A stretch of 64,000 nt of DNA, from assembly GCF_900163665.1 (NCBI RefSeq), contig NZ_FUIA01000001.1, forward strand, positions 1 to 64,000. Direction: 5' to 3'. Below are positions 14,721 to 50,863 of the stretch, one piece after another (position 1 is the first letter of the stretch; each line of letters starts with the position of its first letter). Source of the stretch: Frigoribacterium sp. JB110 (GTDB lineage Bacteria; Actinomycetota; Actinomycetes; Actinomycetales; Microbacteriaceae). The notes beneath the pieces were generated by a model. It did no database searches, was not told the DNA's origin, and saw only the letters and a program-made list of their open reading frames with translations. The translations under genes and the position numbers were made by a program.

Positions 14721-15647
14721 GTGAGTACGGGAGACTTCGCGAGCAACCGCGACAACTACTGCTATCGGCATCCGAAGCGCCAGAGCTTCGTGCTGTGCCA
14801 GCGGTGCGCGCGGACCATCTGCGGCGAATGTCAGACCCAGGCGTCGGTCGGCTTCATTTGCCCCGAGTGCATCAAGGAGCAGCGCAAGAACCGCAGCCCC
14901 GCCATCAAGCGCGCCCAGCGCCGGTGGCGGGGCAGGGGCGGCGGGGTCGCGGCGCTGACGGGCGGCGGCACTCGCGGGATGATGTGGATCTTCATCCTCA
15001 CCGCCGTGCTGTTCCTCGTCGACTGGGCCGGCCAGGCGGGCGGGCTGTCGATCAGGCGGTTCCTGATGTTCGATGCCCCGGACATCTATCCCACGATTCC
15101 GGCACTCGCCGGCCTGGCGCCGGAGATGGGCCCGTTCCAGCCATGGCGAATCCTCACCGTGGCGCTCACGCACGGCGGGTTCATGCATCTGCTGCTGAAC
15201 ATGCTCGCGCTGTGGATGATCGGCCGCCAGCTCGAGCCGCTTCTCGGTACGGGTCGCTTCGTGACGACATATCTGCTCAGCACGGCAGGCGGATCGGCCG
15301 CAGCGGCAGTCCTGGCGATCACGACGCCCGTCGTCGGCGCATCCGGGGCGATCTTCGGCCTGTTCGGCTGTCTGCTGGTGATCGGCAGGCACCTGGGAGC
15401 CAACATGACGGGCATGATCGTCGTGCTCGGCATCAACCTCGTGCTCGGCTTCATTCCGGGGATGAACGTGTCGTGGCAGTCGCACGTCGGCGGTCTCGCG
15501 GTCGGTGCGCTCTGCGGCCTCGTCTTCACGCGTACGCGCCGGCGAGACCAGCGTTCGAAGCAGTACCTCGGGCTCGGCGCCATCGGCGTCGGTCTCGTCG
15601 CCCTGTTCTGCCTGCAGCCCCTCCTCGGCTACGTCGCGCTGACCTGA
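14721..15647 (+). CDS. Rhomboid family intramembrane serine protease
   Basis: 308 aa. The N-terminal 60 residues carry a B-box-like zinc-binding cluster (CYRHPKRQSFVLCQRCARTI, then CGEC and CPEC), common in actinobacterial rhomboids. Six to seven membrane segments follow. The active site is complete: HGGFMHLLLNMLALW near 153, nucleophile in GASGAIFGLFG near 212, and catalytic His in WQSHVGGLAVG near 255. It cleaves membrane proteins within the bilayer; substrates unknown. GTG start 19 bp after ppiA, so probably co-transcribed. Confidence 0.87.
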   Translation: MSTGDFASNRDNYCYRHPKRQSFVLCQRCARTICGECQTQASVGFICPECIKEQRKNRSPAIKRAQRRWRGRGGGVAALTGGGTRGMMWIFILTAVLFLVDWAGQAGGLSIRRFLMFDAPDIYPTIPALAGLAPEMGPFQPWRILTVALTHGGFMHLLLNMLALWMIGRQLEPLLGTGRFVTTYLLSTAGGSAAAAVLAITTPVVGASGAIFGLFGCLLVIGRHLGANMTGMIVVLGINLVLGFIPGMNVSWQSHVGGLAVGALCGLVFTRTRRRDQRSKQYLGLGAIGVGLVALFCLQPLLGYVALT

Positions 15648-16080
15648 GCGGTCGAACAACCGCGGCACATCGACTCAGCGGCCGGACTCGTCTCACCAGA
15701 CGGGTCCGGCCGCTTCTGCATGCGCTGAGGGCTCATCCACAGGACGCGAGGGCGCCGTCGCCCGCCGCGGCGCGGATGTGAGCTCGTGCGCGGGTCGGCG
15801 CCGGTCGATTCGTCCACCGTTTCTCCACACTTTTTCCTCGTTTTCCACCGCGACGAGGTGGTTTGTCCACTGTCCTACGAGGGTTTTCCCCGGAGTTATC
15901 CACAGGATTGTCCCCATCTGGGGAGAATCACACACGTGTTATTCACGCCTGGGGAGAGCCCTGTGGATGAATCACATGGGTGTAGTTCGATCAGCTGCGT
16001 TGAGGAAGGCGCAAGGCGCCCTTCGGCGCGGGGTACGAAAAAACCCCGCCACGGAGGGCGGGGTTCGTTCGAAGCGTGTG
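15648..16080. other. 433-bp gene-free region with a cluster of DnaA-box-like sites
   Basis: Within 15733-15970 there are eight 9-mers resembling DnaA boxes: TCATCCACA (15733-15741), TTCGTCCAC (15809-15817), TTCTCCACA (15821-15829), TTTTCCACC (15841-15849), TTGTCCACT (15863-15871), perfect TTATCCACA (15896-15904), TTATTCACG (15939-15947), and TCATCCACA on the minus strand (15962-15970). A T-rich run lies at 15819-15846. No coding frame is convincing. The neighbours (ppiA, rhomboid, crgA) are normally close to oriC. No dnaA or dnaN is in the window, so this is an origin-like or DnaA-titrating site, not a proven origin. Confidence 0.55.
16037..16065 (-). terminator. Rho-independent terminator of crgA
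   Basis: AACCCCGCC (16042-16050) pairs with GGCGGGGTT (16057-16065) around a 6-nt loop. On the minus strand it is followed by six Ts (16038-16043), 16 bp or so after the crgA stop. Confidence 0.8.
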
Positions 16081-16311
16081 TCAGCGCCAGCGCGTCGTCA
16101 TCAGGAATCCGATGAAGGCGATGCCGAAACCGATCATGAGGTTCCACGCGCCGATGTCGGGGATGGGGAACTGCTGGTCGGTGAGGTAGAACACGATGAT
16201 CCACACGAGCCCCAGCAGCATGAATCCCACCATGATGGGCTTGAACCACACGGGGTTGGGGGCGCCGGCGCCAGCGGGGCGCTCTGGTGTCTCGTCGGTC
16301 TCACGTGCCAT
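16081..16311 (-). CDS. crgA: Cell division protein CrgA
   Basis: 76 aa, typical for CrgA, which in Actinobacteria joins the divisome and influences FtsZ/PBP localisation. Two transmembrane segments are visible (about 26-44 and 54-72: PIMVGFMLLGLVWIIVFYLT and MIGFGIAFIGFLMTT), separated by DQQFPIPDIGAWN, with the conserved PVWFKPIM before the first. A -10 TAGACT (16318-16323) ends six bases before the ATG, so the mRNA is probably leaderless. It lies divergent from the sortase and downstream of the DnaA-box region. Confidence 0.88.
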   Translation of the reverse strand: MARETDETPERPAGAGAPNPVWFKPIMVGFMLLGLVWIIVFYLTDQQFPIPDIGAWNLMIGFGIAFIGFLMTTRWR

Positions 16312-16388
16312 GCCGACAGTCTACTGGGGGATGCGTCCGCCGCGGAACCAGCAGGCCGCCGTGGCGGATTCGCAGAGGTTGAGCACTC

Positions 16389-16394
16389 TAAGAT
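16389..16394 (+). promoter_or_regulatory. -10 box of the sortase gene
   Basis: TAAGAT, seven bases before the ATG at 16402. It decides the start: the upstream ATG at 16393 lies inside the -10 box and could not be on this transcript. Confidence 0.5.
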
Positions 16395-16401
16395 GGTGAC
16401 C

Positions 16402-49378: not shown

Positions 49379-50863
<1,485 letters not shown>

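Follow-up and report, generated by a model that had tools for sequence, protein, structure and literature searches.

We have analysed a 64,000-nucleotide stretch of DNA from Frigoribacterium sp. JB110, referred to here as the window (contig C21, bases 1-64000, in a draft genome of 3.75 Mb and 29 contigs), and within it the 433-bp gap between a rhomboid-family gene and crgA, which is non-coding and is flanked by the 3' ends of both convergent genes. The gap carries a dense cluster of binding sites for the initiator protein DnaA (DnaA boxes), in which we have found a composite element: two tandem DnaA boxes, an inverted third box and, in contact with it, a palindrome that is identical to the operator of the mycobacterial regulator McdR. 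That this composite element exists as a conserved unit is virtually certain. Statements attributed to published studies refer to excerpts of the papers cited.

An earlier note on this DNA had pointed to positions 15733..15970 as an origin-like cluster of eight DnaA boxes, and the cluster is real: seven nine-mers lie within one mismatch of TTATCCACA, TTGTCCACA or TTTTCCACA and 12 lie within two, so that the count of eight depends on the cut-off. When the intergenic region is resampled under a first-order Markov model, the mean at up to one mismatch is 0.16 boxes, and seven or more occur in 0 of 3000 resamplings. No other 238-bp stretch is as dense in boxes, either in the window or in the 96 kb read from contig C23, the replication origin oriC included. 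The non-coding setting described in the note is borne out by the placement of both gene ends, with Pfam support, as are its one perfect box (TTATCCACA at 15896, forward strand) and its two boxes in opposite orientation (TCATCCACA at 15733, forward, and at 15962, reverse); the T-rich tract that it mentioned is present but mild, with a minimum 40-bp GC content of 0.45, compared with 0.40 at the dnaA-dnaN region. What the note had overlooked is the conserved unit at 15893-15946, with its non-DnaA palindrome, and the half copy at 15962-15987 (Table 1). The boxes upstream of the core share a single orientation, with steps of 11, 11, 9, 22, 21, 12 and 12 bp counted from 15810, and no promoter-like site was found within 15600-16400.

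Table 1. Features of the gap between the rhomboid-family gene and crgA, and the two flanking genes (window positions).
Feature	Position	Strand	Remarks
Rhomboid-family gene, convergent neighbour	14721..15647	+	Pfam PF01694, E 1.8e-31
Outlying DnaA-box-like TCATCCACA	15733..15741	+	outside the conserved core
Upstream head-to-tail array of weaker DnaA boxes (15810, 15821, 15832, 15841, 15863, 15884)	15810..15892	+	9-22 bp steps; outside the phylum-wide core
Composite element (three DnaA boxes and McdR operator), best match of model R1	15893..15946	+	own-genome E 1.2e-14
DnaA box 1, perfect TTATCCACA	15896..15904	+	invariant in the 28-row genus alignment
DnaA box 2, TTGTCCCCA	15908..15916	+	12 bp downstream of box 1
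DnaA box 3, inverted, TTCTCCCCA	15919..15927	-	2 mismatches; head to head with box 2
Palindrome AATCACACACGTGTTATT	15926..15943	.	18 bp; 0 mismatches to the McdR/ResR operator AATnACAnnnnTGTnATT
Half-element copy, inverted DnaA box TCATCCACA	15962..15970	-	half copy overall, 15962-15987
Second McdR-operator-like palindrome	15970..15987	.	1 mismatch
Terminator-like hairpin behind crgA	16043..16059	-	2 overlapping sites vs 0.5 expected
crgA, 3' end towards the element	16081..16311	-	Pfam PF06781, E 1.8e-28

The density of the boxes and the mildly T-rich tract would suit a replication origin, and the earlier note had considered that the cluster could be the real origin after a rearrangement. The skew analysis and the placement of dnaA and dnaN, both of which it had proposed, speak otherwise: dnaA is located on contig C23, separate from the contig of the window, and is followed by dnaN; three perfect TTATCCACA boxes lie between the two genes and one before dnaA, and it is there that the GC skew changes sign (-0.0197 on the left, +0.0162 on the right), whereas no change occurs at the cluster (+0.0254 and +0.0223). 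The cluster thus lies neither beside dnaA-dnaN nor at the skew switch; because the skew flips at dnaA-dnaN and not here, and because perfect boxes are located there, we have rejected the cluster as the chromosomal origin, and a real or secondary origin at this place retains next to no probability. Contig C23 extends about 55 kb beyond dnaA, and the sole crgA of the genome is on C21. The other proposals of the note, i.e. a second DnaA-binding locus or a titration or reactivation site, fit the phylum-wide conservation of the element and the published binding of DnaA at the syntenic mycobacterial site, as described below.

Five DnaA-box sites have been identified in the genome (oriC, before dnaA, before dnaB, before nrdHI and the crgA-side element), a set that parallels the DnaA sites mapped in mycobacteria, and the last is the only one of them that sits between two gene ends; five further single-box or weaker sites were inspected briefly.

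Conservation and position of the composite element

Of 39 genomes of the genus, 38 were found to contain crgA, and 30 of the loci were fetched; 29 of these carry the element within 0.9 kb of crgA, following a common plan: TTATCCACA, mostly a second box 12-13 bp further, CTGGGGA, and then the palindrome. The element is inverted relative to crgA in nine of these 29 loci. The genus alignment (A2, 28 rows) omits L015, where box 2 is divergent, and L023, where the element is missing beside crgA. Genome G031 is exceptional, since its element lies about 0.3 kb past the rhomboid gene and about 4 kb from crgA; despite that distance, an expanded TTCTCCAC repeat array stands before the element and a second half-copy accompanies it, as in the window (L305:1800-2030). 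Repeats of GTTAACA occur on the operator side of six genus elements (L032-L034, L036, L018 and L021), four of which are inverted.

A sequence-only model (R1), built from 28 genus elements, has been used for the family search, where it matches 112 of 120 genomes, representing 80 of 85 genera; among 30 fetched family loci (own genome and one genus member included), crgA and the rhomboid gene are each found in 29 by tblastn. Across the class, a wider model matches 171 of 296 genomes, CrgA is present in all 38 class genomes tried, and variants of the element that the model misses can be recognised by eye beside crgA in several class genomes.

The pattern GTTATCCACAGN{19,23}AATNACANNNRTGTNA, which matches once in the window and never in shuffles of it, was scanned against public genomes (one per species, 84,980 in all) and gave at least 120 loci. 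Among the 120 matches listed, 119 have actinobacterial titles, including Microbacterium, Curtobacterium, Leucobacter, Mycobacterium, Rhodococcus, Nocardia, Gordonia and Prauserella, as well as Janibacter, Phycicoccus, Propionimicrobium, Boudabousia, Microthrix, Acidimicrobiaceae and others; the lone other record (L231, Candidatus Fonsibacter), where crgA also stands beside the element, is probably a misbinned actinobacterial contig. By tblastn, crgA lies within 400 bp in 107 of the 120 listed loci, and in 110 (74 of 80 in a first count) when three Acidimicrobiia-type loci (L161, L194 and L196) are added, in which Pfam recognises a CrgA some 20-50 bp from the element. The 3' end of crgA faces the element in all 109 genes found by tblastn, and the element itself is inverted in 24 of these 109 loci.

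The first 80 listed loci, which served for that first synteny count, for the information profile and for the spacing, show that the conservation is sharply bounded: over positions -30 to -2 ahead of box 1 it stays at or below 0.2 bits per position, and from the third base after the pattern at or below 0.34. The step from box 1 to box 2 is 12-13 bp and the gap between boxes 2 and 3 is 1-3 bp, with the operator adjoining or overlapping box 3. Two tandem boxes with an inverted third are present in 105 of the 120 listed elements (with two mismatches allowed in box 2 and in box 3), while boxes 2 and 3 occur together in 0.035% of random strings of the same composition.

We have also considered a structured RNA or a terminator as the source of this conservation, since one strand of 96 nt folds better than its shuffles (z -3.24) and the outermost and central palindrome pairs match slightly more often than in shuffled columns (0.64 vs 0.56 and 0.59 vs 0.47, respectively). 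The central pair consists of adjacent bases, for which a hairpin is impossible, and the variable inner pair shows no covariation (0.58 vs 0.57 shuffled); with the element occurring in either orientation and with no Rfam match at the gathering score, the RNA reading was rejected, and its probability is close to nil.

In closed genomes, the element is located near dnaA: the median distance is 14.9 kb in 47 genomes, 45 of which fall within 9.7-84 kb, the two outliers being G051, where the match is at dnaA-dnaN itself, and G383, where it is 178 kb off and not at crgA. These 47 were drawn from 63 hand-picked single-contig genomes, leaving aside nine genus and two other genomes with no model match in the lists used, and five genomes (G118, G366, G186, G279 and G233) in which dnaA lies across the contig end. 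Such proximity, together with the richness in boxes, would also suit a plain titration sink, i.e. a cluster that is doubled soon after initiation and soaks up DnaA, the palindrome being incidental or serving another purpose, and clusters of Bacillus subtilis and Streptomyces coelicolor are cited as repressing untimely initiation (PMC5742627). A sink would have no need for the fixed spacings of 12-13 bp and 1-3 bp, for the inverted third box or for the abutting operator that is conserved across the phylum, and we regard this explanation as unlikely.

The palindrome and the McdR operator

The palindrome was first derived from the alignments, as GAATNACACNNGTGTNATTC, and the paper that describes the McdR operator was identified only afterwards. 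McdR (Rv1830, ResR) binds AATnACAnnnnTGTnATT at whiB2 and at MSMEG_5468/Rv0996, as seen by DNA immunoprecipitation sequencing (DIP-seq) and electrophoretic mobility shift assay (EMSA), and represses whiB2 in mycobacteria (PMC9040748). The palindrome of the window matches this motif exactly. In the whole genome the exact motif would be expected 0.004 times by chance and is seen at least three times. Besides the crgA-side site, the palindrome of the genome stands upstream of whiB (C4:200564) and of a DUF3145 gene (C15:141684). The motif is exact in 32 and carries one mismatch in 16 of 50 model-found genus and family elements; it is exact in 90 of the 120 listed pattern loci, a count that is partly forced by the search pattern.

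The palindrome also recurs away from crgA. At up to one mismatch it is present in 24 of 30 closed family genomes, with 18 sites that are not at crgA, all of which were fetched: nine stand before whiB, two before DUF3145 genes and seven elsewhere, and eight of the nine whiB sites overlie, by eye, the -10 element of a promoter resembling TTGAC-N17-TGTAAT. In distant families a shorter form, AATNACANNNNTGTNATT, has matches in 8 of 12 genomes; among 15 fetched loci it is found before whiB in L310, L315, L316 and L319, at the 5' end of whiB in L320, at crgA in L308 and L314, and before SepX/GlpR (as recognised by NCBIfam) in L311 and L312. Reversed-pattern controls for the palindrome gave 0 matches. 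The operator at whiB2 and the palindrome of the window share the same AATnACAnnnnTGTnATT, which is also found upstream of the whiB gene of the genome, and they differ in their surroundings: the whiB2 operator lies at a promoter, whereas the crgA-side operator abuts DnaA boxes between two gene ends (PMC9040748).

This distribution bears on the idea that the element is a mark of chromosome organisation, namely a site near the origin that would serve as an anchor in segregation or in the folding of the nucleoid, with DnaA and McdR acting as structural proteins. Its location near oriC in most of the closed genomes inspected and its occurrence in either orientation would suit such a mark; an operator that is common to promoter regions points to a regulator rather than to a structural protein, and we consider the idea improbable.

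Candidate McdR proteins are available in the class: we have found 14 McdR-like MerR proteins, each from a different class genome, with 56-81% identity to the first and a near-invariant core, whose genes sit, by eye, behind garA, ftsR and a nuclease gene in the loci read. Pfam supports this cluster with the FHA domain and both MerR domains in one locus, and with the last MerR domain in three more. From the identity of the motif, McdR would be expected to occupy the crgA-side site, and we hold its binding to the element to be quite probable.

Three other binders of the palindrome have been considered. HigA2 is not known to be distributed across the phylum and was set aside as a phylum-wide binder. 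Its sites have the form ATCAC(N)4-7GTGAT, and one is reported at the syntenic place in M. tuberculosis (PMC11205783). MtrA was rejected because its motif is a direct repeat (PMC6265350), and FtsR (Rv1828) has a different motif (PMC6683498).

DnaA binding and the proposed control site

The counterpart of the gap in M. tuberculosis is the intergenic region between Rv0010c and Rv0011c, the latter of which we take to be crgA. In the 13 named Mycobacterium and Mycolicibacterium loci among those listed, the element is located 69-90 bp from the 3' end of crgA, with DnaA boxes and a palindrome; in a fourteenth (L190:7370-7417, Mycolicibacterium vaccae), the full pattern match lies between TetR and LysR genes, and a crgA-linked copy is found on another contig (L236). 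DnaA binds the Rv0010c-Rv0011c region in M. tuberculosis, as determined by in vitro DNA affinity purification sequencing (IDAP-seq) and by EMSA, and a signal in chromatin immunoprecipitation sequencing (ChIP-seq) of DnaA is reported at the M. smegmatis homologue of the site, the function being left open (PMC7738170). The published site resembles the element in its position, its cluster of DnaA-box-like sequences and its small palindrome; its authors note "no obvious correspondence" in other bacteria, and the phylum-wide element and the McdR operator are unmentioned in the excerpts of that paper (PMC7738170). Given this correspondence, DnaA very probably binds the element in the organism of the window as well.

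Sites that control DnaA away from oriC are best described in Escherichia coli. The core of the DnaA-reactivating sequences (DARS) contains three DnaA boxes at fixed spacing, box I being opposite to boxes II and III so that a head-to-head pair is formed; DARS2 has sites for accessory proteins nearby, and integration host factor (IHF) acts at both datA and DARS2 (PMC5742627). The element resembles DARS1 and DARS2 in having a three-box core with one opposed box, a head-to-head pair and fixed spacing, found in the 105 listed elements mentioned above, a likeness that lies in the arrangement and not in measured E. coli distances; it differs in phylum and in sequence. DARS2 and datA have binding sites for IHF (and Fis) (PMC5742627); in the element, an McdR operator occupies the neighbouring position.

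With datA the likeness is looser. The DnaA-box clusters of S. coelicolor are named H69, H24 and D78. These clusters, those of B. subtilis and datA are, like the element, non-coding, close to the origin and composed of DnaA boxes outside oriC; the essential boxes of datA share one direction, whereas the third box of the element is inverted, and it is the upstream array at 15810-15892 that runs head to tail (PMC5742627).

On these grounds we favour, with moderate confidence, the reading that the element is a control site at which DnaA and McdR bind together and tune DnaA, so that initiation at the nearby oriC and the division programme of McdR and WhiB2 are linked; the binding of DnaA to the syntenic region, and that of McdR to the motif with repression of whiB2, have been established in mycobacterial studies (PMC7738170, PMC9040748). 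The element would be doubled soon after initiation, because of its median distance of 14.9 kb from dnaA in the closed genomes. DnaA would then load on box 1, box 2 and the inverted box 3, by analogy with the DARS core, and McdR on the abutting palindrome would promote or block this assembly, in the gating role that IHF holds at datA and DARS2; the activity of DnaA would in this way be coupled to a regulator that represses whiB2, through reactivation, inactivation or sequestration. A joint control of DnaA activity by the two proteins seems to us an evenly balanced proposition.

As to the direction of the effect, the Rv0010c-Rv0011c site is recurrently varied in clinical strains, and the variants lead to longer cells, in the same direction as dnaA variants (PMC7738170). 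Reduced DnaA function likewise gives longer cells, and the lengthening seen with site variants thus leans to a positive, DARS-like role, a direction that we consider possible and rather doubtful. More broadly, we tentatively propose a phylum-wide, origin-proximal checkpoint between replication and division, i.e. a DARS-like DnaA machine in which McdR replaces IHF and the McdR-WhiB2 loop resets or withholds DnaA, a scheme that falls somewhat short of being probable and that, if true, would explain the like effects of dnaA variants and site variants in mycobacteria.

Several observations weigh against the proposed control site. In M. tuberculosis, dnaA variants show no change in the rate of initiation (PMC7738170), which leans against a strong effect. 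The excerpts of PMC9040748 report no occupancy of the crgA-side site by McdR: for five DIP-seq peaks, the text gives three targets, all of them promoters, with Rv0010c and crgA unmentioned. In the genome of the window, mcdR was not located through its BFN-nuclease neighbour, a BFN nuclease being absent there; the same route failed in four of five other family genomes, and in the fifth (G117) no MerR gene was seen next to the nuclease. At the cut-off used, 125 of the 296 class genomes have no model match, a count in which loss and divergence are not distinguished; Acidimicrobiia-type elements have, by eye, no clear box 2; and in Streptomyces-like genomes (family f25, 8-9 Mb; L112, L114 and L129) DnaA boxes are located at crgA, where the palindrome is altered to TCACACCGGCGTCAAC (three loci, by eye). 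In 13 of the 120 listed loci, tblastn places no crgA within 400 bp, and Pfam recovers one in three of these; in the remaining ten, the distance is 1.2 kb in L181 and 2.4 kb in L192, and tblastn finds no crgA in eight (L175, L190, L211, L214, L219, L224, L225 and L244), of which L175, L219 and L224 are near the end of the locus.

The two proteins could alternatively control transcription of an unannotated RNA, or read-through between the rhomboid gene and crgA. McdR and DnaA do bind promoter regions elsewhere (PMC9040748, PMC7738170), and the mycobacterial site lies upstream of Rv0010c, where a promoter role is possible (PMC7738170). The element of the window is located where two genes end and has no promoter-like match, its orientation towards crgA is reversed in 9 of 29 genus loci and in 24 of 109 pattern loci, and the expression of Rv0010c and Rv0011c is steady in dnaA mutants (PMC7738170); transcriptional control is therefore hardly probable, and since no promoter-like match is present, the target of the element would be DnaA itself and not the transcription of a neighbour.

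We have found no description of the element as a DnaA-McdR site in the open-licence literature, supplements not covered. In actinobacteria, which include antibiotic makers and the tuberculosis germ, the timing of replication and its link to division are poorly understood, and a short, deeply conserved element that sets initiator boxes against the operator of a WhiB2-controlling regulator offers a concrete, testable junction between the two. For the "cryptic" DnaA site of M. tuberculosis, it supplies an identity that extends across the phylum and predicts a partner protein.

Other palindrome and DnaA-box sites

A second composite DnaA-McdR-like site of the genome is located upstream of a nrdH-like glutaredoxin gene and nrdI (L255:1894-1962; contig C27, about 49,393-49,461), where AGTTACATCCATGTGATT, one mismatch from the McdR motif, is fused to the DnaA boxes TTATCCACA, CTATCCACA and TTGTCCACA. 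Two DnaA boxes between rplI and dnaB (L256:1875-1940; C12:34874-34939) match the mycobacterial DnaA site upstream of dnaB.

The upstream regions of whiB in the family (L042:1501-1520, L287-L292 and L296-L298) carry the McdR motif, with TTGAGGGTTTA further upstream in 7 of 10, by eye. TTGAGGGTTTA resembles half of the FtsR motif (PMC6683498), and two MerR regulators may share the whiB promoter. In three genomes (L043:1501-1520, L293 and L294), the DUF3145 gene is preceded by an exact or near McdR motif, and this gene is a possible unrecognised target of McdR. Upstream of SepX/GlpR in the mycobacteria-like loci L311 and L312, the site reads AATTACAGGTGTGTAATT, consistent with Rv0996 as a target of McdR, and it also occurs in L317. 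Of the seven remaining family sites (L295 and L299-L304), five (L295, L300, L301, L302 and L304) have TGACANNNNTGTCA-like palindromes between ACATGTAGTG-like and TATATAGTG-like boxes, representing a different, recurrent promoter type.
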